64,000 nt of DNA from Caulobacter sp. Lineage in GTDB: Bacteria > Pseudomonadota > Alphaproteobacteria > Caulobacterales > Caulobacteraceae. Positions 8,343 to 25,724 of this stretch are shown here, piece by piece. Both the position numbers and the translations under genes were made by a program. The notes beneath the pieces are model-generated. The model saw only the letters and a list, made by a program, of their open reading frames with translations. It was not told the DNA's origin and did no database searches. The stretch is taken from assembly GCA_028291055.1 (NCBI GenBank), contig JAQGIP010000051.1:62001-126000 (forward strand). Reading direction: 5' to 3'. Positions within the stretch are counted from its first letter, which is position 1; the number at the start of each line of letters is the position of its first letter.

Positions 8343-9545
8343 ATGACCACCGCCGCCGACGCCAACATCGACACCCCCCTGCCGCGGCTGATGCCACGGG
8401 TCTCGCTGCTCTATCTCAGCCTCTACATCCACTACGGCTTCTTCGCCTTCGTGCCCCTGTGGCTGAAGTCCCGGGGCGTCTCCTCGGCCGCCATCGGCAT
8501 GCTGGTCGCCATCCCGCTGGTCCTGCGCATCCTCACCGTGGCGCCCATCGCCGGCTACGTCGGCCGCCGGGGCCAGGTGCGCAACGCCATGCTGGTCTTC
8601 ATGCTGGCCGCCGCCGCCCTGCTGGCCGCCCTGGGCATGACCTCCGGCCTGGCGGCCGTGGTCGTGGTGATGCTGCTCTTTTCCCTGGCCTGGGATCAGA
8701 TCCCGGTCCTGGCCGACGCCTATGCGGTGATGGCCGTGCGCAGCCAGGATCTCGACTTCGGCCGTATCCGCGTCTGGGGATCCATCGCCGTGGTCGCGGC
8801 CGCCGCCGCCAGCGGCTGGGTGATCAGCCAGGTCCACCTGCCGGTCCTGCCCTACCTGATCGCGGGCCTGCTGCTGCTGCCCGTCGCCGTCACCGCGTGG
8901 CTGCCCGCCGACAACCGCTTGGCCGGACCCACGGAGCCGGACGAAGCCACCGCCGACTGGCGCCACCTGCTGGCCGACCGGCCCCTGATCGCCGGCATGT
9001 TCGCCACCTCCCTGGTGATGGGCAGCCAGGGCATGTTCAACAGCTTCAGCGCCATCCAGTGGACCGCCGCCGGCATCTCCACCTCGATGGTCGGCCTGCT
9101 CAACGCCACCGCCGTGGTGTCGGAGATCGCCTTCTTCTGGTTCGGCAAGCGGCTGCTGGGAGACCGCGACCCACGCCTGATGCTGGTGATCGCCGCCATA
9201 GCGGCGGCCATCCGCTGGCTGATGATGGCCACCACACCGCACCTGCCCCTGCTGATCGTCGCCCAGCTGATGCAGGGGGCCAGCGCCACGGGCGCCATAC
9301 TGGGCATGATGCTGCTGATCGGCGCCCGCACCCCCGTGCGCCTGACCTCGGCGGCGCAGGGGCTGAACGCCGTGCTGCTGGGCGTCGTGCTGGCCGTGGT
9401 CACCGCCGCGTCGGGCCTGATCTGGGCCTGGGGCCCCGCCATCTCCTACGCCGCCATGGCCGTGGTCGCCCTGACCGCCCTGCTGCCTTTGGCCTTGATG
9501 CGGGACAGACAACCGCGCCCCGAGCCCCGACTCAACCCGGGCTAG
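8343..9545 (+). CDS. MFS permease (PPP / MFS_1-like type)
   Basis: This 400-residue integral inner-membrane protein has about 12 hydrophobic segments. The N-terminal stretch YIHYGFFAFVPLWLKSRGVS resembles the MFS_1-like (PF12832) group, which includes phenylpropionate and nucleoside or sugar permeases related to LacY. ATG 8343 is preferred over frames extending back through the operator. It probably carries the product released from the TonB receptor's ligand into the cytoplasm. It is divergent from esterase-lacI, shares their operator, and ends in a hairpin-rich gap facing the enoyl-CoA hydratase gene. The exact substrate cannot be read from sequence. Confidence 0.87.
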   Translation: MTTAADANIDTPLPRLMPRVSLLYLSLYIHYGFFAFVPLWLKSRGVSSAAIGMLVAIPLVLRILTVAPIAGYVGRRGQVRNAMLVFMLAAAALLAALGMTSGLAAVVVVMLLFSLAWDQIPVLADAYAVMAVRSQDLDFGRIRVWGSIAVVAAAAASGWVISQVHLPVLPYLIAGLLLLPVAVTAWLPADNRLAGPTEPDEATADWRHLLADRPLIAGMFATSLVMGSQGMFNSFSAIQWTAAGISTSMVGLLNATAVVSEIAFFWFGKRLLGDRDPRLMLVIAAIAAAIRWLMMATTPHLPLLIVAQLMQGASATGAILGMMLLIGARTPVRLTSAAQGLNAVLLGVVLAVVTAASGLIWAWGPAISYAAMAVVALTALLPLALMRDRQPRPEPRLNPG

Positions 9546-9643
9546 AGCGCTTTCCGGCGAAGCGGAAACCGGTTTGCCGCCGAAAAGCGCGACAAAACAA
9601 AGACCTAGAGCGCCGCTCCGATTCGATCGGAGCGGATTACGCT
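9546..9643. repeat. Intergenic palindromic repeat / bidirectional hairpin between convergent genes
   Basis: The gap starts with a short palindromic unit (AGCGCTTTCCGGCGAAGCGG, then AAACCGGTTTGCCGCCGAAAAGCGC), a type often scattered through alphaproteobacterial genomes. A perfect hairpin follows at 9613-9635, with CCGCTCCGA pairing with TCGGAGCGG. Lying between two converging genes, it probably also terminates transcription from both sides. Confidence 0.6.
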
Positions 9644-10429
9644 CTACTCCCCCTTGAAGTCCGCCTTGCGCTTCTCGCGGAAGGCGGCGAGGCCTTCCTG
9701 CAGGTCGGCGGTCAGGGTGGTCAGCAGATACTGGTCGCGGTCGGCGCCGGAGGCTTCCACGCGCCCCACCGCCTCATCGATCGCCTGCTTGATGATCCGG
9801 GCCGGCAGGGGCGGCAGAACGGCGGCCTTGGCGGCCCAGCGGCGGGCCACGGTCAGGGCCTCGCCCTTGGCGGTCAGCTCTTCCGCCGCGCCCCAGGCGA
9901 GGCAGGTCTCCGCGTCGATGGTCTCGCCGAACAGGGCCATGCGCTTGGCGCGCGGCGCGCCGATCATGGCGGCCAGCCGCGGCAGCGTGCCCCAGGGCAT
10001 GCTCATGCCCAGCGGCGCCTCGGGCAGCCGCAGCGAGGCGCCCTCCCCCATGATCCGGAAGTCGCAGACCAGGGCCAGGGCCGCGGCCCCGCCGATGCAA
10101 TAGCCCTCGATGGCGGCGATGGTCACCACCTCGATCTCTTGCCAGGCGCGGCACATGTCGGGCCCCGCCTGCTGGGCCACGCGCCGCTCCAGCAGGGTCG
10201 GCTTGGCGGCGGCGTTGGCGGCGGAGGCCTTCAGGTCCTGGCCCGCCGAGAAATAGTCCGCGCCGCCGGTCAGGATCACCGCCTTTACGTCTGTGCGGCG
10301 GCGCAGAGCGGTGGCCACATCGGTCAGTTCGCCCAGCACCTCGAAGGTGAAGGCATTGCGGGCCTGGGGCCGGTCGATCGTGACGACGACGACGCCGTCC
10401 GCCCCCTCGTCGATCCGCAAACTGCTCAT
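9644..10429 (-). CDS. Enoyl-CoA hydratase/isomerase (crotonase) family
   Basis: The 261-residue single-domain crotonase has the CoA-binding and oxyanion segments VILTGGADYFSAGQDL and CIGGAAALALVCDFRI. The second acid position appears as PEAPLG. ATG 10429 (MSSLRIDEGADG) is the natural domain start. Extending to 10480 adds only an unrelated leader. Crotonases hydrate, isomerise or cleave acyl-CoA thioesters, and the exact reaction cannot be told from the residues alone. It follows the second TonB receptor gene on the same strand, but two hairpins separate them, so it may have its own promoter or be read through at a lower level. Confidence 0.85.
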   Translation of the reverse strand: MSSLRIDEGADGVVVVTIDRPQARNAFTFEVLGELTDVATALRRRTDVKAVILTGGADYFSAGQDLKASAANAAAKPTLLERRVAQQAGPDMCRAWQEIEVVTIAAIEGYCIGGAAALALVCDFRIMGEGASLRLPEAPLGMSMPWGTLPRLAAMIGAPRAKRMALFGETIDAETCLAWGAAEELTAKGEALTVARRWAAKAAVLPPLPARIIKQAIDEAVGRVEASGADRDQYLLTTLTADLQEGLAAFREKRKADFKGE

Positions 10430-10448
10430 CGCTGGTCCTTCATGGCAA

Positions 10449-10524
10449 AGGCCGGCCCATCGCTGGACCGGCCTGAACACCCTGCCTCCGTCGGGCCCGC
10501 GCCTCCAAGTCGCGGCGCGGGCCC
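10449..10524 (-). terminator. Two consecutive hairpins after the second TonB receptor gene
   Basis: GGGCCCGCGCC (10493-10503) pairs with GGCGCGGGCCC (10514-10524), an 11-bp stem starting 12 bases beyond the receptor stop. A second, smaller stem (AGGCCGG with CCGGCCT, 10449-10474) follows. There is no T-tract, so termination or mRNA-end stabilisation may be partial. Confidence 0.5.
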
Positions 10525-10535
10525 TTCAGGGGATA

Positions 10536-12698
10536 CTAGTAGCTGTAGCTGAGCTTCACGCCGACGGTGCGCGGCTCGCCCCAGACACCGTTCTCGCCGA
10601 AGATGTTGGCGTCGGCGTCCTGCAGATAGACCGCGTCGAACAGGTTGCGGCCGTAGATCTGGACCTGCCAGTTCTCGGTGGGCTTCCAGGCGAGCGAGGC
10701 GGTCACCAGGGTGTGGGCTTCGGAGATGCGGCTGGGCTCGCCGGTGATCGGATCTTCGCGGACCGTCGCCGTGGAGAAGTCGCTGGAATAGTAGACGCTG
10801 CCGAAGAAGATGAACTCACCGACCGAAGTGGTCTTGCTGTAGTTGACGTTGAAGTTGCCGCTCCAGTCGGGGGCCCGCAGGATGCGATCGCCCGACACGT
10901 CCTGCAGCGCCGTCACCGAGTTGGGGCTGTTGGGGTCGGCCGGCACGGTCGGCAGGTTGACCGACAGGTCCTTGAAGCTGTCGTAGCGGCCGTGGGTATA
11001 GGCGCCGGCGAGCGACAGGGTCAGGTTGTCGGTGACGTTCCAGCTGGCCGAGCCTTCGAGACCATAGATCGTCGCCGCGGCGGCGTTCTGGAAGATGGTC
11101 GTGGTGCCCGTGTAGCGGCTGACCTGGATGTTGGTCCACTTGTAGTGATAGGCGGCCAGCGAGGCGGCCCAACGCGGGCGGCTGATCTTGTAGCCGACCT
11201 CGAAGGCCTGCAGCTTTTCGGGGTTCAGCGCCTGGGCGGCCAGTTGCGAGCCGGCGGTCAGGCCCACCGCGTCGGTGTTGTAGAGGCCGCTCTTGAAGCC
11301 CTTGGAGTAGGACGCATAGACGTTGCTGTTCTCGTCGAACTTGTAGCGGACCACCGCGCGCGGCGAGAAGTCGGTCCAGGTCTTGGAGTTCAGGAAGGCC
11401 ACCGTCGTCGGCGCCGCGATCGGACGCTGGTAGTGGAAGTCGCGCTGCTCGTAGCTGTAGCGGCCGCCCACGATCACCGACAGATTGTCGGTGACATTGA
11501 TGGTGGCGTCCAGATAGGGCGCGAACGACTTGGTGATCTGCTCGGCGCGCAGGTTGGCGGAGATGTACTTCTTCACGAAGTCGTTGTCGTAATAGAATAG
11601 GCCGCCCACCCATTCGACGCGCTCGCCCTTGTGCGAGATGTTGAATTCCTGACTGAAGGTCTTGTCCGTGGAGAACCACGAGGCCGAGCTGGTGGGCGCG
11701 TCGCGGGTGTCGGTATCGGCCGACAGGTGGTTGGTTTCGTTGCGGAAACCGGTCAGCGACGAGAACTTGTAATCCCCCAGCGTATATTCGGCCTTGGCGC
11801 TGCCGACACCCCAGAAGGCGCGGTTGTCGGCATTGTAGGTGGAATAGATGGTGTTGCGGGTCGAGGGCGCCGCCGGCTGCACCAGCTGGTGGTTGAAGGG
11901 GGTGCGCAGCAGGCCGGTGGTGTCGTAGGAGCCGCCGTGCTCGGCCGTCAGGGTCAGGCGGAAGCCTTCCGCCGGGGTCCACAACAGCTTGGCGCGCTCG
12001 CCATACTGCCATTGCTTGTTGAGCGGCGTGCCCACCGGCACGCCCACGGAACTGACCGGGTCATGGCCCTTGACCAGCCAGCCGTCGGATCCGCGCGCCG
12101 TCAGCGCCAGGTCCACCGCCACCGTGTCCGACAGGCCGGTGGTGCCGTAGAAGTTGCCCGAGCGGCCGTTACGCTCCTCCACGCCGCCGCTGACGCTGAA
12201 ATGCGGGTCGTGCGACGGGTCCTTGGTGGTGATCATGATCGCGCCGCCGGTGGCGTTGCGGCCGAACAGGGTGCCTTGCGGACCCTTCAGCACGTCCACG
12301 CGGGCGACGTTATTGAAGTCGGCGTCGATGGACACCTTGGAGGGGTTATAGAGGCCGTCGATATAGACGGCGACGCTGTTCTCGCCCACGCGGCTGTTGA
12401 CGCCGCGGATCGCCGGTTCCGTCCAGGCGCCGTTGTGGGTCACCGTGACGGCGGGCGTCAGGCGGAAGATATCCTTCACCGTGTGGATGGACTGCTGGTC
12501 CATCTTCTGGGCGGAGATCGAGGTGATGGTGATGGGCACGTCGACGATGCGCTCGTCGCGGCGCTGGGCGGTGACGACAACCTCTTCGACCGCGGTGTTG
12601 CCGCCACTGGCGTCGGCGTCAGCCGCATAGGCGGCGGTGAAAGGCGTAAGCGCGCTGCCGGCGAGGGCCAGCAGGATCCAGGTCTTGGCGACGGTCAT
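10536..12698 (-). CDS. TonB-dependent outer-membrane receptor (TetR regulon)
   Basis: This 720-residue receptor has a signal peptide (MTVAKTWILLALAGSALTPF), the TonB box EEVVVTAQRR, a plug with LKGPQGTLFGRNATGG and a beta-barrel ending in VKLSYSY. ATG 12698 follows a GGGGAGG ribosome site. The longer frame to 12776 runs through the promoter. It is the only outer-membrane importer in the large acyl-CoA cluster, so it probably takes up that pathway's substrate. A variant of the 18-bp palindrome found at the cluster's other promoters lies at 12733-12750, 35 bases upstream of the start, supporting co-regulation. Confidence 0.93.
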   Translation of the reverse strand: MTVAKTWILLALAGSALTPFTAAYAADADASGGNTAVEEVVVTAQRRDERIVDVPITITSISAQKMDQQSIHTVKDIFRLTPAVTVTHNGAWTEPAIRGVNSRVGENSVAVYIDGLYNPSKVSIDADFNNVARVDVLKGPQGTLFGRNATGGAIMITTKDPSHDPHFSVSGGVEERNGRSGNFYGTTGLSDTVAVDLALTARGSDGWLVKGHDPVSSVGVPVGTPLNKQWQYGERAKLLWTPAEGFRLTLTAEHGGSYDTTGLLRTPFNHQLVQPAAPSTRNTIYSTYNADNRAFWGVGSAKAEYTLGDYKFSSLTGFRNETNHLSADTDTRDAPTSSASWFSTDKTFSQEFNISHKGERVEWVGGLFYYDNDFVKKYISANLRAEQITKSFAPYLDATINVTDNLSVIVGGRYSYEQRDFHYQRPIAAPTTVAFLNSKTWTDFSPRAVVRYKFDENSNVYASYSKGFKSGLYNTDAVGLTAGSQLAAQALNPEKLQAFEVGYKISRPRWAASLAAYHYKWTNIQVSRYTGTTTIFQNAAAATIYGLEGSASWNVTDNLTLSLAGAYTHGRYDSFKDLSVNLPTVPADPNSPNSVTALQDVSGDRILRAPDWSGNFNVNYSKTTSVGEFIFFGSVYYSSDFSTATVREDPITGEPSRISEAHTLVTASLAWKPTENWQVQIYGRNLFDAVYLQDADANIFGENGVWGEPRTVGVKLSYSY

Positions 12699-12732
12699 GG
12701 GCTTAGCCCTCCCCTTAGGTTTCTTATGATAT

Positions 12733-12750
12733 ATACCGACCGCCCCGTAT
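12733..12750. promoter_or_regulatory. TetR-type 18-bp operator variant (TonB receptor promoter)
   Basis: ATACCGACCGCCCCGTAT matches the window consensus ATACCNACCGGTNGGTAT in the whole left half and less well on the right. It lies 35 bases upstream of the receptor start. The rest of the 252-base gap (12699-12950) is relatively AT-rich and shows no gene. Confidence 0.45.
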
Positions 12751-12950
12751 GTATCTTGCGTCAACGAAAAGGGCAATAGATATATTAAGGTCCAACGTGT
12801 TGTTTCGAATGATTATTTCAACGCTGTCGCGTTTTCTGCCCGAGCCCTGCGGTCCCGAACGATTTACTACCGCAGGTAGGTTATCCTATATTTGGTCACA
12901 ACCTAACAACAATTCGAACCGCCGGTATGGAACCTGACCAGATCTTGCGG

Positions 12951-15140
12951 TCAGGCCACGGTCCGGGTCCCGAGATAGTCCTCTACCTGTGCCGCCGAGT
13001 AGCCCAGGTCCCTGAGCAGCTCGCCGGTGTGTTCTCCGAAGTGGGGCGCGCGGCCGGGGCCGGGCGCGGGTGTCTTGGACAGCTGGACCAGCGCGCCCGT
13101 GGCGACGATGCGGCCATAGCGCGGATCCTGGAAGGTGCGGGTCAGGCCCGCGGCGACGGCGCCGGCGTCGCGCTCCATCGCCCCGTCCTGCAGCGAAAGG
13201 CAGGGCTCGGCCCAGACCTCCGCATCGGCCAACGCGGCCAGGGCGGCGTCCGTGTCCAGCTTGGCGAAGGCCGCCGCGATGACCTGCGTGGTCGCCTCGC
13301 GCCAACCGGCGCGCGGGCCGAGATCCAGGCCCAGGCAGGCAGCCAGGCGCGCGGCCATCTCGGGTGAGCGCGCCGCCACGGCCAGCCAGCCGTCGCGGGT
13401 GGCGTAGAGGCGTTCGGCTGGGTTCAGCCCCAGCTGTTCGGCGTCCACCGTCGGCGCACCGATGAAGGCGCCGTCCGGCGTCTGGATCAGTTCCGACATC
13501 AGGTAGAGGGATGAGTCGAGCAGGTTGACCTGGGCGTCGAGCAGCGTGCCGCTGATCGAGCGCTCATAGAGGCCCATCAGCAGCGAGATGCTGCCCAGCG
13601 AGCCGGTCGTGTAGTCGACCACCGCGGTGCGGTACCAGAGCGGCGGATTGCCGGCGCCGCCGGCGCGCACTTCCTGGCCGCTGATCGCCTGCAGGATGGG
13701 GTCGAGCCCGGCCAGCGTCGCCTTCGGTCCGGTGGCGCCATAGGCCGAGGACTCCAGCGTCAGCACGTTCGGCGCTTCGCGGCGTAGGTCCTTCGGGCCG
13801 ATGCCCAGCCGGTCGGCCACGCCAGGGCGGAAGTTGTTGTGCACGATGTCGGCGCTGGCGCACAGGCGGCGCAGGACCTCGCGGCCCTCCGGCGTCTTGA
13901 TGTCCAGCACGATGGAACGTTTGCCGGTGTTGCAGCACCACCAGGCGGAATAGACCTTGGTATTGGGATCGCCGCCGGGGCCATCCACCTTGATCACGTC
14001 CGCGCCCAGGTCGGCCAGCGCCTTGCCCACGTAAGGTCCGGCGATGAAGGTGCCCAGGCCCACGACCCGCACCCCGGCCAGCGGTCCGGCCGTCTTGTCG
14101 GCGAGCGGCGCCAGGGGCGCGGGAGCCACCTTGGCGCCGGCCTTGATCTGGATCGGCAGGGCGACGGAACGCACGCCGTCGGCGCCCGTCCGGATGATGC
14201 CGTTGATATTGGTCTGTTCGTCGTCCCAGTTCTCGCCGGGCTTGAGCACCGCGTCGGCCGGAATGCCGTTGTCCCAGAAGGCCTGCAGCAGGTCGGGACG
14301 GGTGAACTTGCGCACATAGCTGGCGAACAGGTCGAAATCGCCGAAGAAGTCGCGCGGCGGGGCGTCGGGCCGCTTGGCGCCGGTATCCAGCGGATCGACC
14401 TCGCCGGGGATGCCCAGCACGCCATAGACCCGCGCCAGCGCGCCGGGGCGCTGCATGGCGAACTGGATCCAGCCGCCGTCGGCGCATTCGAAGATCAGTT
14501 GGCGCACATCGAGCGGAATCTCGGAAAGCGAGGCGGTGTCGTCGCGCTCATAGACGATGCGGTCGGGCATGCAGACCATGGCCGCGCCGTGCTGCAGCGA
14601 GGTGCGTACGATCTGGCCCTCGCCGGTCCGCTCGCGCGCCACCAGCCCGGCCCACACCCCGACCATGCCTTGCAGGGCCATGGCGAAGGATGGCATCGGC
14701 AGCGCCCACGCCAGGGGCTTGTCGCTGAACTGTTCGAAACACATCCCCGAGCGGGCCTGGGCCAGGAGGTCGACGGCCGGGCGGGCCGCGCCCTCCCCGT
14801 CCACGCCGCCGCTCAGTTCCAGTACGATGGCGCGGCCGTTCAGGGCCGCGATCTGCTCGGCGTCGCGGGGCTGCTCCAGGCCCGGATAGTCCTCGCCGCC
14901 GGTGATGATGATGTCCGCCGCGCGGACCGCCGCGTCGAAAGCGGATTGGTCGATGGCCGCGCCGCCCGAACGCAGCACGCCATAGGCCGGATAGACGTCA
15001 TGGAAGGGGTCGCCATTGGACGGTTCGAGCCGCTGCACGGCGGCGCCGATGTCGGCGAAATGACGGCCGATCAGGGCCGCGCCCAGGCCCACGCCGAGGT
15101 CCAGCACCTTGAGCTGACTGATTGCCGGCAAGCGATCCAT
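12951..15140 (-). CDS. Double-domain CaiB/BaiF CoA-transferase
   Basis: The 729-residue protein contains two complete family III CoA-transferase domains. The first begins QLKVLDLGVGLGAALIG; the second begins at about residue 350 with PLAGVRVVGLGTFIAGPYVG. Each keeps an Asp at the position of the acyl-enzyme residue (VDLLAQARSG and GLDPILQAISG). Single-domain members are about 400 residues and act as interlocked homodimers, so a fused pair could form a pseudodimer. These enzymes move CoA between carboxylic acids, activating a substrate without ATP. The gene lies downstream of the TetR-reductase-monooxygenase operon but has its own 18-bp operator 121 bases upstream. A weak hairpin overlaps the stop codon (12933-12955). 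Confidence 0.92.
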   Translation of the reverse strand: MDRLPAISQLKVLDLGVGLGAALIGRHFADIGAAVQRLEPSNGDPFHDVYPAYGVLRSGGAAIDQSAFDAAVRAADIIITGGEDYPGLEQPRDAEQIAALNGRAIVLELSGGVDGEGAARPAVDLLAQARSGMCFEQFSDKPLAWALPMPSFAMALQGMVGVWAGLVARERTGEGQIVRTSLQHGAAMVCMPDRIVYERDDTASLSEIPLDVRQLIFECADGGWIQFAMQRPGALARVYGVLGIPGEVDPLDTGAKRPDAPPRDFFGDFDLFASYVRKFTRPDLLQAFWDNGIPADAVLKPGENWDDEQTNINGIIRTGADGVRSVALPIQIKAGAKVAPAPLAPLADKTAGPLAGVRVVGLGTFIAGPYVGKALADLGADVIKVDGPGGDPNTKVYSAWWCCNTGKRSIVLDIKTPEGREVLRRLCASADIVHNNFRPGVADRLGIGPKDLRREAPNVLTLESSAYGATGPKATLAGLDPILQAISGQEVRAGGAGNPPLWYRTAVVDYTTGSLGSISLLMGLYERSISGTLLDAQVNLLDSSLYLMSELIQTPDGAFIGAPTVDAEQLGLNPAERLYATRDGWLAVAARSPEMAARLAACLGLDLGPRAGWREATTQVIAAAFAKLDTDAALAALADAEVWAEPCLSLQDGAMERDAGAVAAGLTRTFQDPRYGRIVATGALVQLSKTPAPGPGRAPHFGEHTGELLRDLGYSAAQVEDYLGTRTVA

Positions 15141-15260
15141 GGTTCGTCTTCAGCGCCTTCTTGGCCGCCGGTCCGCCGCCGATGCGGGGGTGTCCGAGAG
15201 CCTTGTTTTCCTCCCCAGATCAAACGCTGGGAGTTCACCGCAGCCCCGCTCTCAGGCGGG

Positions 15261-15278
15261 ATACCTACCGGATGGTAT
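15261..15278. promoter_or_regulatory. TetR-type 18-bp operator (CoA-transferase promoter)
   Basis: ATACCTACCGGATGGTAT is a strong match to the window consensus, located between the TetR gene stop and the CoA-transferase start. Confidence 0.65.
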
Positions 15279-15298
15279 GGATCGTCGTCCGCACACTG

Positions 15299-15976
15299 TC
15301 AAGCGCCCGGACCGCCCTCTGCTTTGGGCCAATTGGTCGCGATTCCGACCAGCCGCAACGCGGCGTCCTCCATGTGGTCGGCGATATCTTGCGGCGTGCG
15401 GCGGCCGGACGGATTGTACCAGTTGATGGCCCAGGCGATCATGCCGTTGACCTCGTGCGCGGCCAGCGCCGGGTCGTCGATCCGGAAGGCCCCGGCCTTC
15501 ACGCCGTCGGCCATCAGCCCCGACAGCACGTCCAGAAAGGCCCGGCCGAGCGCGGTCACATCGCGCATCTGCTCGGCGTTGAGCAGCCCCTTCTCGCGCG
15601 AGATCAGCGCGATCCGCTGGCGGTCGGTCAGCACCAGCATCGCATAGGTCCGCGCGAAGGTTTTCAACTGCGCTACCGGGTCGTCCGACGAGGCGCGCGC
15701 CGCGCGCGCCACCTCCAGCGCCGAGTTCACCGAGGCCAGGTACAGCGCCAGCAGGATCTCGTCCTTGCTCTTGAAATGGTAGTAGATGAAGGGCTTGGTG
15801 ACCCCCAGCGCCGAGCACAGGTTCTCCATGCTCGCGCCATGGAAACCCTTCACGAAGAACAGCTCCGCCGCCACGTCCAGGATACGTTCGCGCTTCAGGT
15901 TGCGGGTGTGGTCGCGGGCGGAAAGGGGCGCGTTCATCGGGCCGGAATCTCTCACTGCCAGGGTGGCGCCGGTCAT
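15299..15976 (-). CDS. TetR/AcrR-family transcriptional regulator, candidate master regulator
   Basis: The 225-residue protein has an N-terminal helix-turn-helix (ENLCSALGVTKPFIYYHFKS, about residues 51-70) and an all-helical C-terminal ligand domain. It starts at ATG 15976 in a four-base ATGA overlap with the flavin reductase gene, so it is translationally coupled. Its C-terminal domain is visibly homologous to the C-terminal half of that reductase: both share a GAF-I motif, an ALAA or ALTA block, then GM, W and W at matching spacing. TetR proteins usually repress by binding palindromes until a small ligand, often a CoA thioester in catabolic loci, releases them. It is one of two candidates (with 24972-25670) for the 18-bp sites. 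Confidence 0.92.
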   Translation of the reverse strand: MTGATLAVRDSGPMNAPLSARDHTRNLKRERILDVAAELFFVKGFHGASMENLCSALGVTKPFIYYHFKSKDEILLALYLASVNSALEVARAARASSDDPVAQLKTFARTYAMLVLTDRQRIALISREKGLLNAEQMRDVTALGRAFLDVLSGLMADGVKAGAFRIDDPALAAHEVNGMIAWAINWYNPSGRRTPQDIADHMEDAALRLVGIATNWPKAEGGPGA

Positions 15977-16893
15977 GCGGCCAGCGCTCCGGCCCCAACG
16001 GTGACGTCCACCAGTTCACACAGCCGCTCGCCCAGTTCCCCGCGCGACAGGCCCGACGACTTATGCCACCGCGACACCCAGCTGGTCATGCCCGTAATGG
16101 TCTGGGCGGTCAGCGCCACGTTGGCGATGTGGAAGGCGCCGCTCGCCACCCCGCCGGTCAGCAGCCCGCGCAGCTTCTCGTCGAACCCGGCCTTGGCCGC
16201 CTTGATCCCAGCCAGCGTCTCGCGGCTCAGCAAGGGCTCCAGCCCCTGCAACGCCTCGACATCCCGGTCCAGCTCCAGGTGGAATTCCGCGAAGGCGCGC
16301 ACGAAGGCGTGCAGCTGCCTCAACGGCTCGGCATGCTCCGTCTGGGCTTCGTCGATACAGGCCACCGCCCGGCGCACCGCGCCCAGATAGCGCTCCACGT
16401 CATCCTTGGTGGCCTTGGCCAGGCCCGCCCAGCCGCCGTCCACATAGAGCAGCTGGCGATCGCTCTCGCCCAACTGCACCGCAACGACCTCGCCGACCAG
16501 CAGGATGTGGGTGTCGATCTCGTGCGTCGCCGCCAACCGGCAATCGAAGCTCACCGCCGACTTCAGCAGCACCGGCGCGCCGGTCTCCAGCGTCGTCCAC
16601 TCAGCGCCCTCAAAGCGCTGCTCACCCTTCAGCCCGCCCGCCCCGGCGAAGCGGTTACCCACCGCGTCCTGGTCATAGGCCAGAGTGTTGATCGCGAACG
16701 CCCCGGCCGCGAGCACGCTCGGCAGCGCGCTGGCCGACCTGTTCAGCGCCACCGCCAGCTGCGGCGGCTCGGCCGTCAGCGACATCACCGCCGTGGCCGT
16801 CATGCCCGCGCGCGCGCCGCCATGCTCGGCGGTGATCACCGAGACGGCGGCCGGGAACCTGCGCATCCCGGCCTTGAAGTCCTCAGGCGACAT
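15973..16893 (-). CDS. Flavin reductase fused to a TetR-type ligand-binding domain
   Basis: Residues 1 to about 160 form a flavin reductase domain of the HpaC/NADH:FMN type (MRRFPAAVSVITAEHGG, GMTATAVMSLTAEPPQLAV, FAINTLA, then HEIDTHILLVGEVV). Residues from about 165 to 306 lack any helix-turn-helix but match the C-terminal domain of the neighbouring TetR: conserved QL-F-R-A spacing, LL-E, and GAFHI, ALTA, TGM, W, W, SG in the same order. The likely job is to supply reduced FMN to the upstream luciferase-like monooxygenase, with which it overlaps by 11 bases. Known HpaC-type reductases with a fused MarR domain are switched on by substrate, and a comparable sensor role is inferred here. Confidence 0.85.
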   Translation of the reverse strand: MSPEDFKAGMRRFPAAVSVITAEHGGARAGMTATAVMSLTAEPPQLAVALNRSASALPSVLAAGAFAINTLAYDQDAVGNRFAGAGGLKGEQRFEGAEWTTLETGAPVLLKSAVSFDCRLAATHEIDTHILLVGEVVAVQLGESDRQLLYVDGGWAGLAKATKDDVERYLGAVRRAVACIDEAQTEHAEPLRQLHAFVRAFAEFHLELDRDVEALQGLEPLLSRETLAGIKAAKAGFDEKLRGLLTGGVASGAFHIANVALTAQTITGMTSWVSRWHKSSGLSRGELGERLCELVDVTVGAGALAA

Positions 16894-17995
16894 CCGCCAC
16901 CTGCAACGCCGGCTTGGGCGTGAACACCTTGTGCTGGAAGTGCGGCATCACTTCCTGCGCGAAGCGCGTCATGTTGCGGTGACGCACCTCTTTCGGCTGG
17001 CCGATCGTGCAGGTCTGGATGACGAAGTGGTTGAAGCCGAAGCCCTGCAACCTCTCCAGCCGCTCCTTGATCATCTCCGGCGTGCCGGTCAGCTGCATGT
17101 CCAGATAGGGGTCGAGGTTCTCCGGATACTGGTTCTTGGCCAGGTTGGCGAACATCCGCGCAAACGACTCGTAGCCCTTCTTCTGGCTGAAGTCGGTGGT
17201 GTCGGTCTCATAGTGCTTCACCTGCTGGCGGAAGGTCTCGGGCAGCCACCGCCGGCCCTCCTCGCGCGCCTCCTCCGCCGTGTCGCCGATGAAGCATTTG
17301 ATCTGCAGCGGGACCGAGACGTTGGTGTCCATCTTCAACTCCTCGGCGCGGACCTTCCAGTTCTTGATGATGTTCTCCAGATAGCGGTCCGGGAAGTTGG
17401 CCAGGCACAGCGGCGGCACGCCCATGTCGGCGGCCTGGGCGGCCTTTTCCGGTGAGCCGATGGCCCCGTAGAAGGTCGGCTTGCTGGCCGGGAAGGGCTT
17501 CATCGTCACCTTGCGGTTGACGTTGTAGTAGTCGCCCTTGAAGTCGAACGGCTGCGGGCCATAGCTGCGCTGCAGCAGCTTCAGGCCCTCTTCCAGCTGC
17601 TCGCGGCCGATGTCCTGGTCCATGCCGAAGGCTTCGTATTCCAGCGCCGCCGTGCCGCGTCCCAGGCCGATATGCAGCTCGCCCTGCGTCATCAGCGACA
17701 GCATGTGCAGCTCTTCCGACATCCGCATCGGCAGATACCAGGGCAGCACCAACACCGCCGTGCCCAGCGACAGCCGCGGCGCATGCGCGGCCACATGCGC
17801 CAGCATCAGCAGCGGGCTCGGGCAGGGATAGTAGTCGGAGAAGTGGTGCTCGATCATCCACACGCCGTCATAGCCGAGCGTGTCGGCCAGCATCGCGTCC
17901 TCGACCACCTCGCGGTACATGGTCCGCTCGTCGGCGGTGATATTCACAGGCGAGGCCTGCACGGAGAACTGGGTCGCTTTGGGGCTCGAAGACAT
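16883..17995 (-). CDS. LLM-class flavin-dependent monooxygenase (long form)
   Basis: The 370-residue TIM-barrel protein is of the bacterial luciferase group. VWMIEHHFSDYYPCPSPL and LHIGLGRGTAALEYEAFGMD carry the EHHF and GLGRG motifs of this subfamily. AAGGAGGAG lies directly upstream of ATG 17995. Such enzymes use FMNH2 and oxygen to hydroxylate or insert oxygen into ketones, alkanes or alicyclic substrates. They need a separate reductase, and the next gene encodes one. The operon is monooxygenase, reductase-sensor fusion, TetR, all overlapping. A full 12-base operator half plus a second palindrome lie just upstream. The related gene at 19730 has the same EHHF and GLGRG layout. Confidence 0.9.
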   Translation of the reverse strand: MSSSPKATQFSVQASPVNITADERTMYREVVEDAMLADTLGYDGVWMIEHHFSDYYPCPSPLLMLAHVAAHAPRLSLGTAVLVLPWYLPMRMSEELHMLSLMTQGELHIGLGRGTAALEYEAFGMDQDIGREQLEEGLKLLQRSYGPQPFDFKGDYYNVNRKVTMKPFPASKPTFYGAIGSPEKAAQAADMGVPPLCLANFPDRYLENIIKNWKVRAEELKMDTNVSVPLQIKCFIGDTAEEAREEGRRWLPETFRQQVKHYETDTTDFSQKKGYESFARMFANLAKNQYPENLDPYLDMQLTGTPEMIKERLERLQGFGFNHFVIQTCTIGQPKEVRHRNMTRFAQEVMPHFQHKVFTPKPALQVADVA

Positions 17996-18010
17996 GGCGC
18001 TCCTCCTTAA

Positions 18011-18048
18011 GTTCGTACCGGTTGGTATGTTTATACCACGCGGTATAA
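18011..18048. promoter_or_regulatory. TetR-type operator plus a second, tighter palindrome
   Basis: GTTCGTACCGGTTGGTAT (18011-18028) holds a perfect right-hand ACCGGTTGGTAT but a degenerate left arm. Immediately beside it TTATACCACGCGGTATAA (18031-18048) is a palindrome with the same ATACC/GGTAT arms spaced by four bases instead of eight. Both are within 55 bases of the monooxygenase start. Confidence 0.55.
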
Positions 18049-18080
18049 TTCCGGCCGCTCAGAGCGTCAAATGAAATCCG

Positions 18081-19574
18081 TCAGGTCCGCGTCCAGAGCG
18101 GAATCCCCTCGGCGTCATGGGTCACCAGCCCCCTCGCCCCCACCGGCTCCTCGCTCTCGCTGAGCAACAGCGCCAACGCCGTCTCGTCCCCCACCGCCAC
18201 CTTGGCCAGCAACCGCCCGCCCTCAGGCGTGCGCGCGATCACCACCCCATGCCGGGGCGCCCCCGCCCGGTCGAACAACACCGTGCAGGCCTCGATCACG
18301 GCCGGCCCCGCATGGCCGCTCACCGTGGGAATCCCCGATGGCCGCTCCGTCTCCGGATGCTGGTATTCCTCGGCCAACGCCCGCGCCGGCGCGCGCGCCG
18401 AAACCACCAGCGCATGGTGCTTGCTGACATAGCCGCCCTGGCCATAGAGCAGCGCCGCGCTCTCCGGCTGCGCCCTCACCCGCCGCACCATGGCGACCGC
18501 CGCATGGGCCATGTAGTTGTTCAGCGGCGCCCCGAAGAAGGTCAGCCCGCCCGTCACGCTGATCGCCGCATCAGGCCCCAGCCCCAGATGCCGCCGCGCC
18601 ATCTTCGGCACCACCGGGAAACAGCTGTAGAGCTCCACCAGGTCGAAGGCCGCCCTGCCCTCGCCCGCCAGCACCGCCGACGCGCCATCCAGCACCGCCG
18701 CCATCGCCCCGGCCCGGTCATAGCGTTCCCGCGCCAGATAATCCGCCGGCTCATTGGCCGCCGCCCCGCCCCAGGGATAGACGATCCGGTCCTCCGCGAT
18801 GCCCAGCGCCCGCGCCCGCGCCAGGCTGGTCAGCACCACCGCCGCCCCCTGGTTGACCAGCGGATTGGCCACCATCAGCTTCGGATAGGGCCAGGCGATC
18901 ATCCGGTTATCCGCCGACACCGTGGCGATCTCGTCGGCCCCGAACCGCCGCTTCTGCCAGGCCGACGGCTGCGTCGCCGCCACGGCCGACAACCCGGCCC
19001 ACAGCGCCGCCGACTCCGCCCGCGCCTCGCTGAAACTCTGCCCCCACGCCGCCCGCGTCGCCGACTCATAGAAGGGATAGACGTTGGTTGGGATCGCCAC
19101 CTCCAGCGTGCGCGCCAGCGCCGCCTGCGCATGCCCCGCGCGCGGCGGATCGTAGTCCTCGACCCGCGGCGACCAGGGCAACTCCACGCCCGCCTTCGCC
19201 GCACGCCGCACGCTGCTCTCGGCTTCAGCCCCCACCACCAGCGCCAGGGAACTGTCGCCACGCGCGATGCGCAAAGCCGCCTCATGGATGAACTGCACCG
19301 GCGACTGCCCGCCCACCGGCCCATAGCGCCCATGCCGGGGGCTCATCCCCAGCAACCCACTGACCAGCCCCACCGCATCCGGATAGGGCCACGACACCTC
19401 GTTGACGATATCCAGGCTGTCGCAGGCGCCCAGCAACGCCGCCCCCGCATCGGCCTCCGCCGCCCGCGCCGCCGCCACCATCAGCGCCGCCGGCTCAAGC
19501 CCCGGCCCCTCGGCCGCCCGGTCCACGGCCTCGCCCACGCCGACGATGACGGGAATGCGGTCTTCAGCGCTCAT
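18081..19574 (-). CDS. Thiolase-like protein (TLP1 / SCP-x type) with C-terminal extension
   Basis: The 497-residue protein has a thiolase fold. It starts MSAEDRIPVIVGVGEAVDR, with ARAAEADAGAALLGACDSLD and the block YGPVGGQSPVQFIHEAAL where biosynthetic and degradative thiolases carry the nucleophilic Cys. Here that position has no Cys. FDLVELYSCFP and GGLTFFGAPLNNY are the later thiolase motifs. From about residue 410 an extra domain follows, matching in place and size the additional C-terminal domain of mycobacterial thiolase-like protein type 1. Such proteins bind CoA but lack ordinary thiolase activity, and relatives act as retro-aldolases in steroid side-chain loss. No DUF35 partner gene is nearby. 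It follows the LLM gene at 19730 across a repeat element. Confidence 0.83.
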   Translation of the reverse strand: MSAEDRIPVIVGVGEAVDRAAEGPGLEPAALMVAAARAAEADAGAALLGACDSLDIVNEVSWPYPDAVGLVSGLLGMSPRHGRYGPVGGQSPVQFIHEAALRIARGDSSLALVVGAEAESSVRRAAKAGVELPWSPRVEDYDPPRAGHAQAALARTLEVAIPTNVYPFYESATRAAWGQSFSEARAESAALWAGLSAVAATQPSAWQKRRFGADEIATVSADNRMIAWPYPKLMVANPLVNQGAAVVLTSLARARALGIAEDRIVYPWGGAAANEPADYLARERYDRAGAMAAVLDGASAVLAGEGRAAFDLVELYSCFPVVPKMARRHLGLGPDAAISVTGGLTFFGAPLNNYMAHAAVAMVRRVRAQPESAALLYGQGGYVSKHHALVVSARAPARALAEEYQHPETERPSGIPTVSGHAGPAVIEACTVLFDRAGAPRHGVVIARTPEGGRLLAKVAVGDETALALLLSESEEPVGARGLVTHDAEGIPLWTRT

Positions 19575-19591
19575 GCGGGCAAACCCCAAAA

Positions 19592-19717
19592 CTCCGCTCA
19601 TCCCGACGAAAGTCGGGATCCATAGGGCATCAAGTGGAAACGCGCAGACGAGCGCTACCCCTCACAGCCAAACTTCGGGCGCCCCATGGATCCCGGCTTT
19701 CGCCGGGATGAGCGGAG
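19592..19717. repeat. Intergenic hairpin-ended repeat, family 1, copy 1
   Basis: Left end CTCCGCTCATCCCGACGAAA and right end TTTCGCCGGGATGAGCGGAG form long inverted ends around about 70 unrelated bases. Other copies lie at 27738, 48026 and 58028. It carries no gene. Confidence 0.8.
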
Positions 19718-19729
19718 AGTTGGAAAGCC

Positions 19730-20836
19730 TCAGGCCGCCTTCTGCCGCTTGCCCATGGCCTGGATGCCGGGCAGCACCGCCTCGGTCCACAGTTGCATGT
19801 TCCCGTTGGCCTCATCGTCGTCCATCGCGCCGTAGCTGAAGATGGCGTTGAAGTGCTCGCAGCCCAGCATGTCGCGGATGGTCTCGATCCGGCCCAGGCA
19901 CTGTTCCGGCGTGCCATAGACCTGCAGGTTGGCGAAGTTCACCGCCGCCTCGTCCTGGCCCCACTTGTTGATGTTTTTCGACATCTTGCCGTAGTACTCG
20001 TAATCCTTGGTGGTAGTCAGATGATCGCCGGCCAGCTCATAATGCTTCATCACCGTCTTGTAGTAGTTGCCGAGCTGGAACTGCCCCCGCTCCTTGGCCT
20101 TTTCCGCATCGCGGTCGACATAGACCTGGCAGGTCACGATCGGCGTCGGCGCCTCCTCGTGATTGATCTCCTGGAACAGCGTCTTGTAGCCCTCGTGCTC
20201 CTTCACCGTGGTCTCCCACGGCTTCTGCGGCGTGATCAGGATGCCGACGCCCAGCCGCGCCATGATCTCCTGGCTCTCCGGCGACACGGCGGCCGCATAC
20301 TGGCGGCCCTTGAAGCTGGCCGTCGGGCCGGGGCGCAGATAGCGCTTGGGCACCTGATAGTGCTTGCCGTCGAACTCCATGTAACCGTCGCGCAGGCCGT
20401 TCAGCATGATGGTCGCCGCCTCGATGAAGCGTTCGCGCGACTCGCCCATGGGAATATTCATCCCCTCGAACTCGATGCGGCCCAGGCCGCGCCCGATGCC
20501 GAGCACGAAGCGGCCGTCCGACAGGTTGTCGAGCAGCGCCACGGCCTCCGTCGCCCGCACCGGATTGTGCCACGGCAGGATGATGGCGCCCGAGCCGATC
20601 TGGATATGCTTGGTGCGCGAGGCGATGAAGGCCAGCACCTGGGTCACGTCCGGCACCATGGTGTAGCCGGTGAAGTGGTGCTCCACGCTCCACACCGCGT
20701 CATAGCCGAGCTCCTCGGCCCGGGACGCCTGGGCGATGTCGCGCTTGATGATCCCGCGGTCCGACACGGCGGTCGGGCCTTCGCCCTCCTCCAGATAGTT
20801 CGGATGCTGGAAGAAGAATGTCATCCCGGCTTTCAT
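19730..20836 (-). CDS. LLM-class flavin-dependent monooxygenase (long form), second
   Basis: The 368-residue luciferase-fold protein has VWSVEHHFTGYTMVPDV, IQIGSGAIILPWHNPVRATE and LGIGRGLGRIEFEGMNIP, the same EHHF and GRG arrangement as the enzyme at 16883. ATG 20836 (MKAGMTFFFQHPNY) follows GAGGAGA, and extension to 20917 would cross the operator. It is presumably an FMNH2-dependent oxygenase fed by the reductase at 15973. An 18-bp operator lies 48 bases upstream of the start. The two LLM enzymes probably act on successive or related intermediates of one pathway rather than being isozymes, since their sequences differ considerably outside the core motifs. Confidence 0.9.
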   Translation of the reverse strand: MKAGMTFFFQHPNYLEEGEGPTAVSDRGIIKRDIAQASRAEELGYDAVWSVEHHFTGYTMVPDVTQVLAFIASRTKHIQIGSGAIILPWHNPVRATEAVALLDNLSDGRFVLGIGRGLGRIEFEGMNIPMGESRERFIEAATIMLNGLRDGYMEFDGKHYQVPKRYLRPGPTASFKGRQYAAAVSPESQEIMARLGVGILITPQKPWETTVKEHEGYKTLFQEINHEEAPTPIVTCQVYVDRDAEKAKERGQFQLGNYYKTVMKHYELAGDHLTTTKDYEYYGKMSKNINKWGQDEAAVNFANLQVYGTPEQCLGRIETIRDMLGCEHFNAIFSYGAMDDDEANGNMQLWTEAVLPGIQAMGKRQKAA

Positions 20837-20883
20837 TGGCCCGTCTCCTCTATGGGGCGCCGCTCCGCGGAGGCGCCAATTAC

Positions 20884-20901
20884 AAACCGACCGGTAGGTA
20901 T
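20884..20901. promoter_or_regulatory. TetR-type 18-bp operator (LLM / thiolase-like operon)
   Basis: AAACCGACCGGTAGGTAT matches the consensus at all but one specified position and centres on a perfect ACCGGT. Confidence 0.65.
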
Positions 20902-21040
20902 TATGTCGGGGCAACACGCAAAGTCAACGCGGCTCCCCAAATTTTCCCCGACGCCAGGTCAACCCCGCCCCCGCGCAGCGGCCTCAATACCTTCGCGCCC
21001 CGATGGCCCGGGCGCCGGTAGGCCTGTGCACCTTCCACGT

Positions 21041-21124
21041 CTTGGCGTCCTTGGTGGTTCATCTCCTTTGCGCCGCCGAGCCCGGCATCCATTGCCCGAA
21101 GGTTCGACCACCAAGGACGCCAGG
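21041..21124. repeat. Intergenic inverted repeat, third repeat type
   Basis: CTTGGCGTCCTTGGTGG (21041-21057) faces CCACCAAGGACGCCAGG (21108-21124), differing by one base, around about 50 bases. Similar ACCACCAAGGACGCCAAG units recur in some alphaproteobacterial genomes. Only one copy is in this window. Confidence 0.6.
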
Positions 21125-21201
21125 AAGTGAAAGGCGCCGAGCCGAGGGCGCCTGGGCCACATGGCGTCGGGATCGAATGAATGATCCGCTGCGCGGGCGC
21201 C

Positions 21202-22236
21202 TCAGCCCGCCGCCGCGAGCGCCTCGCTCCAGCCCTCGAGCGGTTCGAACAGCGCGGCCACGTCCGCCTCGCCCACGTCCTCGATGGACCCCGGCGACCA
21301 GGCCGGCGGCGCGGTCTTGTCCAGCAGCGCGGCCTTGCTCCAGCCGGCGAAATCATGCGCCGATATCAGCCGTCCGTTCAGCCGGTATTCCAGCTCCAGC
21401 GCCATCTGCGCCGAGGCCACCCCCGCCCCGCGCTTCAGCAGCTCAAACGCCGCCGCCACGGCCAGCGGCGAGCTCTTGCGGATCGCCTCCAGACTCTTGG
21501 CCGCCAACGCCCCGCCGTCCGCCTCCAGCGCCGCGATCAGCGCGCCCAGGCTGGGCTGCACGAACAGCCGGTCGATCTGCGCCTGGTCGGTGGGCGCCGC
21601 CACGGCTTGAGCAAACCCGTCCAGCAGCGCCCTGTAGTCCGCCGGCCGCGCCACCAGCGCAGCCTTCAGTTCCTCCAGCCGCCCACTCTCCACCAGCACG
21701 TCGGCCAACCCGCGCGCCACCACCTCGCCGCCCTTCAGCCGCGTCCCGCTCAGCGTCAGCCACAGCCCCGTGCCGCCCTTCAGCCGGGGCAAGGCCCAGG
21801 CCCCGCCCACATCCGGGATGAAGCCGACGCTCGTCTCCATGAAGGCCACCATCGTCCGCTCGGTCGCCACGGTGACGGCGGCCGCCAGCGCCAGCCCCAG
21901 GCCACCCCCGAGCGTCGCCCCGTCGGCCACGGTCACGATCGGCTTGGGATAGGCGGCCATCACCGCCACCATCGCCTGCTGCTCGGCGAAATAGGCCCGC
22001 CCCCAGACCCCGTCGCCATTGCCGCTGGTCGCCAACCCCACCGCGTCGCCGCCCGCCACGAATCCGCGCTCGCCCACATGATCGATCAGCACCAGGCTCA
22101 CCGCCGGGTCGCTGCGCCACCCCACGAGGGCCGACGTAACGGCCCCGATAATCTCCAGGTCCAGCGCGGCTTTCGCAAGGCCGATACGACCCACCGCACC
22201 TTCGACACGGGCAACCACATGCGGCGAGCTGGTCAT
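21202..22236 (-). CDS. Crotonase, 3-hydroxyisobutyryl-CoA hydrolase-like
   Basis: The 344-residue crotonase is longer than ordinary hydratases. It resembles the ECH_2/HIBCH group in GERGFVAGGDAVGL (oxyanion region), ATLGGGLGLALAAAV and METSVGFIPDVGGAWALPRL, where the Glu and the PDVGG motif are characteristic. HIBCH members hydrolyse beta-hydroxyacyl-CoA thioesters, while others in the group are hydratases. It lies 21 bases after the OYE-type gene and at the end of the operon that starts with the MFS carrier at 24812. Release or shortening of a branched acyl-CoA is a reasonable role. The gene precedes an intergenic repeat that may mark the operon end. Confidence 0.83.
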   Translation of the reverse strand: MTSSPHVVARVEGAVGRIGLAKAALDLEIIGAVTSALVGWRSDPAVSLVLIDHVGERGFVAGGDAVGLATSGNGDGVWGRAYFAEQQAMVAVMAAYPKPIVTVADGATLGGGLGLALAAAVTVATERTMVAFMETSVGFIPDVGGAWALPRLKGGTGLWLTLSGTRLKGGEVVARGLADVLVESGRLEELKAALVARPADYRALLDGFAQAVAAPTDQAQIDRLFVQPSLGALIAALEADGGALAAKSLEAIRKSSPLAVAAAFELLKRGAGVASAQMALELEYRLNGRLISAHDFAGWSKAALLDKTAPPAWSPGSIEDVGEADVAALFEPLEGWSEALAAAG

Positions 22237-22257
22237 GGCAATCTCCGCCCCGCGCCC

Positions 22258-23397
22258 TCAGACGAGGACGTCGTAGGCCTCTGCATTGAAGGGAATGAAG
22301 GCCTCGCCGGTGCGGGCCTTGCGCGCGAACTGCGGGTCGCTCAGCAGGGCGCGCCCCACCGCGATCAGGTCGAACTCGCCAGCCTCGAAGCGCGCCAGCA
22401 CCCGGTCGAGGTTGTCCACCGTGAAGATCTGGCCGTCGCGCGCCACGCCGACCCCGCCCACCGCCATGGTGGTCACGCCGGTCAGCTTCCTGGTCCAGCC
22501 CGCCTGGCTCAGCTCCGAGCCCTCGAACGCCGGCCGGTCGAAGTTGCGCGTGGAGACGTCGAACACATCCACGCCCGCCTCCACCAGCGGCTCCAGGAAG
22601 GCCGCCAGGTCGTCCGGCGTCTCGCCCAGCCGCGCCAGGTAATCGTGCTGCTTCCACTGCGAATAGCGGAAGATCACCGGCCTGTCCGGCCCCACTTCGC
22701 GCCTCAGCCCCTTGATGATCTGCACCGCGAACTCGGCGCGCCGGGCCATGTCCCCGCCCCAGCGGTCGTCGCGCTGGTTGGTCTCTGCCCAGAAGAAGGT
22801 GTCGATCAGATAGCCGTGCGCCCCATGCACCGCGATGCCGTCGAAGCCGACGCTCATCGCCGCCGCCGTGCTCCTCACATAGCCGTCGACCAGGTCCTGC
22901 ACCGTCTCGTCGGTGGGCGCCGGCAGCGGCTCGCTGACCTTGGCGATGAACGCCGCCGGCGTGGAGGTATGACGCCCCACCGGCCCCCAGAACCCCGACG
23001 GCCGGATCGACATCGCCTCCGGATACGGCCCCGTGCCCTGCAACCGGAACCCGCCCATGTGCCACAGCTGCGGAATGATCAGCCCGCCCGCCCCGCGCAC
23101 CGCCTCGACCACGCGCCGCCAGCCGGCCAGCGCGGCTTCGCCATACATGAAGGGGATGTCGGCCTGGCGCTTGCCCATGCCCGCCTCGCCCAGGGCCGAG
23201 GGATGATCCACCCCCACGCCCTCGGTGATGATCAGCCCCACCTCGGCCTCGGCCCGGCGTTTGTAATAGGCCGCCACATCCTCGCCCGGCACGCCGTCCG
23301 TCGAGAAGTTGCGCGTCATCGGCGACATCACGATGCGGTTGGGCAGGCTCAGCCCCCGCACGCTCAGCGGCTCAAACAGCGGCGACGTGTCGGCCAT
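22258..23397 (-). CDS. NADH:flavin oxidoreductase, old yellow enzyme family
   Basis: The 379-residue FMN-binding TIM barrel starts MADTSPLFEPLSVRGLSLPN and contains RIVMSPMTRN, IIPQLWHMGG, DGIAVHGAHGYLIDTFFW, DRPVIFRYSQWKQ and VGVARDGQIFT. It is single-domain; the iron-sulfur and Rossmann extension of the larger 2,4-dienoyl-CoA reductase type is missing. Old yellow enzymes reduce activated C=C bonds with NAD(P)H. ATG 23397 is five bases after the MFS stop, so the genes are co-transcribed. The role is probably saturation of an enone or unsaturated acyl intermediate. It needs FMN, in keeping with the riboflavin kinase in the same regulon. Confidence 0.9.
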   Translation of the reverse strand: MADTSPLFEPLSVRGLSLPNRIVMSPMTRNFSTDGVPGEDVAAYYKRRAEAEVGLIITEGVGVDHPSALGEAGMGKRQADIPFMYGEAALAGWRRVVEAVRGAGGLIIPQLWHMGGFRLQGTGPYPEAMSIRPSGFWGPVGRHTSTPAAFIAKVSEPLPAPTDETVQDLVDGYVRSTAAAMSVGFDGIAVHGAHGYLIDTFFWAETNQRDDRWGGDMARRAEFAVQIIKGLRREVGPDRPVIFRYSQWKQHDYLARLGETPDDLAAFLEPLVEAGVDVFDVSTRNFDRPAFEGSELSQAGWTRKLTGVTTMAVGGVGVARDGQIFTVDNLDRVLARFEAGEFDLIAVGRALLSDPQFARKARTGEAFIPFNAEAYDVLV

Positions 23398-23402
23398 GAA
23401 CC

Positions 23403-24812: not shown

Positions 24813-24823
24813 GAATAACAATT

Positions 24824-25670: not shown

Positions 25671-25724
25671 ACGTCTGCTTCTCTCGGCCCGATCGGACCT
25701 GGCCCCCGGAATCAAGGTCCATCA

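Follow-up and report, generated by a model that had tools for sequence, protein, structure and literature searches.

A flavin reductase joined to a TetR-type ligand-binding domain in a Caulobacter gene cluster

The fusion gene and its tail

In a 64,000-nucleotide stretch of a Caulobacter sp. genome (contig JAQGIP010000051.1, positions 62,001 to 126,000; the window), one gene on the reverse strand at 15973-16893 encodes a flavin reductase joined to the ligand-binding domain of a TetR regulator that has no helix-turn-helix (HTH). The gene is a single frame of 306 amino acids with its stop codon at 15973-15975. An earlier note, made from the letters alone, had read it as a reductase that continues into a tail homologous to the TetR regulator of the next gene and lacks the HTH, and our analysis bears out both parts. 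Residues 1-157 (16423-16893, reverse strand) form a RutF/HpaC-like split-barrel domain, which Pfam Flavin_Reduct matches at residues 10-156 with an E-value of 1e-37 (profile positions 1-150 of 153). The joint and the TetR-type domain make up residues 158-306 (15976-16422, reverse strand). Here the Pfam search that the note had proposed finds TetR_C_24 at residues 189-294 with an E-value of 2.7e-16 and 60.3 bits, above the gathering cut-off of 26.4. TetR_N has no Pfam match in the fusion protein at E≤1, and a TetR-protein profile aligns to the fusion only from its position 62 of 199, i.e. after the HTH.

The next gene (15299-15976, reverse strand; a later start at 15937 is possible) encodes a TetR regulator with both TetR_N and TetR_C_24. 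In BLASTP, fusion residues 162-281 align with its residues 70-191 with 42 of 123 columns identical (34%, E 5e-16), and identity across the whole domain is 29%. The reductase half keeps 34 of the 39 positions that are at least 90% conserved in 27 standalone reductases. Its nearest NCBIfam family is RutF, yet it stays below the equivalog cut-off (128.8 of 254.75 bits). The fusion likewise misses the NCBIfam cut-offs of HpaC TIGR02296 (83.9 of 205.95 bits), HsaB (76.9 of 230 bits) and the C1 model NF045919 (59.3 of 340 bits, with only profile positions 7-156 of 309 matched). The joint lies at the natural C-terminus of standalone reductases and at the start of TetR helix alpha4. The GC content at third codon positions is 0.85-0.97 along the gene, joint included, and because it is even across the joint we see no sign of a frameshift.

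The AlphaFold2 model of the fusion, built from a 36-row alignment of window sequences and related loci, has a mean predicted local distance difference test (pLDDT) score of 91.9 and a predicted template modelling (pTM) score of 0.64. It places a split-barrel reductase up to residue 157, with strands between residues 18 and 157, followed by six tail helices (163-186, 190-216, 224-250, 259-271, 273-280 and 284-299). Modelled alone, the tail reaches a pLDDT of 91.2 and a pTM of 0.86. Since the alignments included TetR rows, the predicted fold is not independent of the sequence evidence. Foldseek with the whole model lists reductases, including C1 (5zyr, 5zc2) and SMa0793 (3rh7). For the tail alone the top match is the TetR repressor PfmR (3vpr; E 1.7e-05, TM-score 0.78 by query length). 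The tail search gave 573 matches, 12 of them at E≤0.001; among the best 50 of the 573, which were examined by title, are AibR with isovaleryl-CoA (5k7h), FasR with C20-CoA (6o6n), MbdR, KstR2 and FadR. Three of these 50 are titled 'superantigen PfiT' (4mxm, 4mo7), a molecule that the sequence search names Transcriptional regulator I2. A profile of the tails recovers the same group in the PDB by sequence, with 29 distinct sequences at E≤0.001. The C-terminal half is thus predicted to be an all-helical TetR fold and not the unrelated fold that would have spoken against the earlier note.

Recurrence, relatives and origin of the fusion

The same architecture occurs in other genomes, where the note had suggested looking for it. 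A scan of a genome contig collection with a reductase alignment and one pattern, GLTATAV[CM]S, gave 455 stretches with 429 relatives, of which the best 80 were retained; the window protein (GMTATAVMS) would not match this pattern, so that fusions may be missed. An earlier single-protein scan of the collection had returned nothing. Top of the ranking were two full-length fusions with both halves confirmed by Pfam: one of 314 amino acids in a Burkholderiales metagenome-assembled genome (MAG; L084, TetR_C_24 107.1 bits) and one in a frame of 327 amino acids in an Ectothiorhodospiraceae MAG (L085, TetR_C_24 109.1 bits). The joint aligns without a gap among the window, L084 and L085 proteins. A tblastn search of the L084 and L085 proteins against 72,556 plasmid records added a fourth fusion, WP_338423138.1 of plasmid p1 of Arthrobacter sulfonylureivorans (370 amino acids; Flavin_Reduct 1.6e-43, TetR_C_24 6.3e-20), whose reductase half belongs to another branch (30% identical) and which has a gene for a luciferase-like monooxygenase (LLM) 2.2 kb away. 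The architecture is real and recurrent. A scan of viral contigs found no fusion.

In a tail tree of 30 rows, the window, L084 and L085 tails form one clade (support 97/90), and the TetR neighbour of the window fusion is placed elsewhere. The window tail scores 63-66 bits against the L084 and L085 tails, 57 against the TetR of an unfused relative (L088) and 50 against its neighbour. Forcing the window tail and the neighbour together costs 4.2 log units, and the approximately unbiased test does not reject the pairing (p-AU 0.149). The proposal of the earlier note that the tail was copied from the adjacent TetR is therefore unsupported, as the fusion tails group with each other. A single clade of all four fusion tails is rejected (p-AU 0.0245), which is a good but not final test given the very long branch of the Arthrobacter row, and on this evidence the Arthrobacter fusion is apparently independent. 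Because the four-tail clade is rejected and the Arthrobacter reductase half is only 30% identical, the architecture likely arose at least twice, in Proteobacteria and in Actinomycetota.

The reductase tree (123 matches of at least 105 bits, reduced to 47 rows) places the three proteobacterial fusions inside a 10-row clade (support 100/97) with seven unfused reductases: L074, L086, L087, L088, L089, L092 and L162. In four of these seven (L088, L089, L092 and L074) a TetR gene of the P0002 group directly adjoins the reductase. L088, a Rhodocyclaceae MAG, and L089, a Betaproteobacteria MAG, share the window's gene order of LLM, reductase and TetR; in L092 the TetR precedes the reductase, and in L074 and its near copies L073 and L075 it is divergent from it. 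An LLM gene lies directly upstream of the L086 reductase, an LLM-like frame accompanies that of L162, and the L087 reductase is accompanied by a gene which we take to be HpaB-like. Just upstream of the L084 fusion the contig breaks off within an LLM gene, whose remaining end is, over the 97 amino acids compared, 38% identical to the second LLM of the window (LLM2) and 27% to the first (LLM1). In the best tree the reductase halves of the three fusions are not one clade, as L086 falls inside; their single clade is not rejected (p-AU 0.149, or 0.311 with L086 added), and the trees fit either one or more fusion events among the three. A pair in the order of L088 and L089 that lost the stretch from the reductase stop to the HTH would give the fusion, and the intact TetR downstream in the window would then be a second TetR.

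Several candidates were rejected as fusions. In Sinorhizobium fredii NGR234 (85% coverage) the reductase frame ends before the tail, and in seven Sinorhizobium meliloti records (90-97% coverage) the alignments run past a stop; the frame is 200 amino acids long in the two records read. Pfam finds only the reductase in the 320-residue frame of L086, and the fusion tails match there in any frame only at E≥0.19. A worn HTH suspected by eye at residues of about 176-214 of the Arthrobacter protein was dropped, being supported neither by Pfam nor by the TetR profile.

Other flavin reductases with C-terminal extensions came to light besides. Six in plasmid records (L221-L226; 310-393 amino acids) have C-terminal parts of about 147-232 amino acids in which no Pfam family lies above its cut-off and none is TetR_C at E≤5; an LLM gene adjoins the reductase in L223 and L224 and a dodecin gene in L225 and L226. 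In the same Burkholderiales genome as L084, a locus obtained through an LLM match (L190:167-1291, reverse strand) encodes a 374-residue protein with Flavin_Reduct (5.8e-40) and an IclR_C sensor domain (2.8e-13).

Operon, cluster and operator-like sites

The fusion lies in an operon with overlapping genes. Its stop overlaps the start of the neighbouring TetR gene by 4 nt (ATGA), and its start is overlapped by 11 nt by the LLM1 gene (16883-17995, reverse strand; Bac_luciferase 9e-49). LLM2 lies at 19730-20836 (reverse strand; Bac_luciferase 3.8e-57 for the longer frame); its open reading frame could begin at 20917, and an operator-like site at 20884 favours 20836. These genes belong to a catabolic cluster of about 9.6-47 kb with an old-yellow-enzyme-type oxidoreductase, CoA transferases, enoyl-CoA hydratases, a thiolase-like protein, an acyl-CoA dehydrogenase, an AMP-ligase, major facilitator superfamily (MFS) transporters, a flavin-binding monooxygenase and a riboflavin kinase. 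A TonB receptor at 10536-12698 was assigned by sequence reading. The riboflavin kinase (27956-28363, reverse strand; 135 amino acids, Flavokinase 5.6e-37) is a stand-alone protein whose gene follows a same-strand CoA transferase gene after 9 bases; usually this enzyme is part of bifunctional RibF. A second TetR with TetR_C_24 (24972-25670, reverse strand; Pfam 9e-25) is far less like the fusion tail (E 0.001). No Rfam family matches at gathering score in window positions 9500-27000.

Two of the CoA transferases, at 12951-15140 (729 amino acids) and 42781-45030 (749 amino acids), both on the reverse strand, look like doubled CaiB-type enzymes; in each the best CoA_transf_3 stretch is the second half, and there is a second matched stretch. 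At 46507-47151 on the forward strand lies a TetR_N protein of 214 amino acids without a Pfam TetR_C match at 1e-5.

The palindrome ATACCNACCGGTNGGTAT occurs at 10 window sites (12733-40396) with at most 3 mismatches, against 0.09 expected, a count that is biased because the pattern was drawn from these same gaps. Eight of the nine sites with at most 2 mismatches in the 5 Mb genome fall in the cluster, and a reversed control pattern gave one site. Loci L090-L163 minus L092, 953,603 bases in all, contain one site. Sites with one mismatch lie between the TetR and the CaiB gene, upstream of the latter (15261-15278), and upstream of LLM2 (20884-20901). The site upstream of an MFS gene (24824-24841) has none, another site stands by the riboflavin kinase gene (27933-27950), and a weaker one with 3 mismatches lies upstream of the TonB receptor. 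The LLM1 promoter has an imperfect site (18011-18028, 3 mismatches) and, separate from it, the perfect palindrome TTATACCACGCGGTATAA at 18031-18048; the sole other window match to TTATACCNNNNGGTATAA has 3 mismatches. Nearly the same word as ATACCNACCGGTNGGTAT is the PfmR consensus TACCGACCGNTNGGTN (Agari et al., quoted in the available text of PMC7022988), and two sites with 3 mismatches each lie upstream of the Thermus gene. The distribution of these PfmR-like palindromes suggests a dedicated local regulon.

Proposed function and comparison with known systems

LLM monooxygenases require reduced flavin, usually reduced flavin mononucleotide (FMNH2). With moderate confidence, and by analogy, we propose that the fusion is a flavin mononucleotide (FMN) reductase that feeds the monooxygenases of the cluster and is gated by its TetR-type tail, which would sense a pathway ligand. 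Reductase activity and the use of FMN are themselves inferred; as an NAD(P)H:FMN reductase the protein would supply FMNH2 to LLM1, encoded directly upstream, and probably also to LLM2, and the riboflavin kinase would keep the FMN level up. In TetR proteins helix alpha4 passes ligand binding on to the DNA-binding domain. The reductase of the fusion stands where the HTH would be and is joined directly to this helix, so that a ligand-driven movement of alpha4 would act on the C-terminus of the reductase. The functional precedent named by the earlier note, the Acinetobacter reductase C1, is real: its MarR tail is self-inhibitory, substrate relieves the inhibition, and 4-hydroxyphenylacetate raises flavin reduction at least 30-fold (available text of PMC10816480). 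By analogy the TetR-type tail would be a brake that the pathway ligand releases, and the enzyme would consume NADH and give off FMNH2 only while the pathway is active. The sensed ligand is most likely a CoA thioester, because several structural relatives of the tail bind acyl- or aryl-CoA and the cluster has genes of CoA-thioester metabolism; MbdR, for example, responds to 3-methylbenzoyl-CoA (available text of PMC4424350). The neighbouring TetR probably responds to this compound or a relative of it and governs transcription, in which case the expression of the genes and the activity of the enzyme would both depend on a single class of ligand.

A number of observations weigh against this proposal. 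The tail of the window protein is diverged, with 31-33% identity to the other fusion tails, and keeps 17 of the 29 positions that are invariant in four TetR tails; L084 keeps 18 and L085 21 of the same positions, two of which precede the joint. The L085 fusion has no LLM neighbour and an upstream gene resembling short-chain dehydrogenases/reductases instead, and at E≤1e-10 no match to LLM1 was found in its genome, which may be incomplete; coupling to an LLM is thus not universal. DarR with cyclic di-AMP is also among the listed tail matches, so the structural neighbours are not all CoA binders, and no ligand is seen in the available information on PfmR, the nearest structure to the tail. The operator word does not occur in L084-L089, L092 and L073-L075, which carry relatives of the neighbouring TetR or of the fusion, and nothing therefore yet ties the operator-like sites to this TetR. 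The fusion is also rare. With the window protein as query, no other fusion appeared among the genomes of its genus (75 genomes, E limit 1e-20), family (299, 1e-20), order (398, 1e-26) or class (385, 1e-24), with the window genome counted and, from the family upward, no more than 5 to 7 candidates scored in each genome, and a profile of the three fusions gave no further one in 349 phylum genomes (E limit 1e-35). Among 54 genomes from the order to which L085 belongs and 74 from that of the L084 family, their own genes alone covered both halves; the genome samples overlap one another. Rarity is judged here by coverage: no other row extends past residue 221, rows beyond about residue 168 pass through stops, and for rows fetched as loci the frames were additionally searched with the fusion tails.

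The tail might serve structure only, its TetR-type helix-bundle dimerisation stabilising the reductase dimer or docking a partner without any ligand sensing. In its favour, G268, M269, W272 and W276, on the late helices that build the dimer interface in TetR proteins, are among the positions that do not vary across the three fusions. However, BorF, which has this reductase fold as its only domain, already forms homodimers according to the available text on it. In addition, TetR_C_24 was the subtype taken up in both of the apparently independent fusions, and several unfused reductases adjoin a TetR of that type, which points to sensing; we regard a purely structural tail as unlikely, if worth serious attention. 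Rather improbable in our view is that the fusion pairs with the neighbouring TetR through shared dimerisation helices, as an anti-repressor or a flavin or redox co-sensor. The two share an operon, have overlapping genes and contain related domains by the 123-column alignment, and the L085 contig also has a TetR with TetR_C_24 (3846-4703, on the other strand, 1.7 kb from the fusion). Yet over the whole domain tail and neighbour share only the 29% identity given above, the TetR of L085 does not adjoin its fusion and resembles the window TetR only distantly (40 bits), and the L084 contig, which is short (4,452 bases), yielded no TetR.

The window tail has a long branch (1.71 changes per column) and the fusion is rare, which would fit a functionless, decaying remnant of a TetR gene joined by chance. 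Against such decay, which we consider very improbable, stand the confident fold, the coding signature throughout, a joint shared among three distant genomes and another fusion of apparently independent origin. To an assembly error or frameshift joining two genes, named in the earlier note as a possible refutation, we give a negligible probability: the window genome is a draft of 154 contigs, but nothing was found in favour of such an event, and the single frame, the even third-position GC content and the same joint in relatives from other genomes contradict it.

TetR ligand-binding domains are known to act through an attached HTH; here such a domain is attached to a metabolic enzyme and the catalytic domain replaces the HTH. 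If the tail gates the enzyme, the sensor domains of regulators would be interchangeable allosteric modules for flavin reductases, namely MarR in C1, TetR in the window fusion and IclR in L190. Such modules would matter for the question of how cells keep from wasting NADH, and from forming peroxide out of free FMNH2, when substrate is absent. More tentatively, and as a possibility rather than an expectation, the fusions could represent a second class of flavin reductases under ligand control, in which a TetR sensor, recruited on at least two occasions, stands where C1 has a MarR sensor. Ligands of one family would then open both the operator, through the TetR, and the FMNH2 tap, through the fusion; subunits might even be swapped between the two proteins, and transcription would in that way also read the flavin supply.

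Among the titles and abstract starts listed in searches of the open PubMed Central literature, none describes a flavin reductase with a TetR domain, and the record of WP_338423138.1 is annotated only as 'flavin reductase'. Like the window fusion, this protein combines Flavin_Reduct and TetR_C_24 and has LLM and CoA genes nearby; it differs in its reductase branch (30% identity), its longer linker and a tail outside the fusion clade. The L088 and L089 operons have the same gene order as the window and related proteins, but their reductase stops at the natural C-terminus and a complete TetR is encoded separately. PfmR (TTHB023 of Thermus thermophilus, 3VPR), the best structural match of the tail, is related to the window TetR (82 bits), adjoins acyl-CoA genes and has a similar operator word; unlike the fusion it is a complete DNA-binding repressor without an enzyme domain. 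C1/AbHpaC, the reductase of the p-hydroxyphenylacetate 3-hydroxylase of Acinetobacter baumannii (PDB 5ZC2, 5ZYR), shares with the fusion the reductase fold, a C-terminal domain from a family of transcription regulators and, as we propose for the fusion, service to an FMNH2-using monooxygenase. Its tail is a MarR domain, whereas that of the fusion is a TetR ligand-binding domain of another fold without an HTH, and the LLM neighbour of the fusion also differs from the setting of C1. By these sequence comparisons the window fusion is not a member of the C1 family; if our reading holds, it works like C1.
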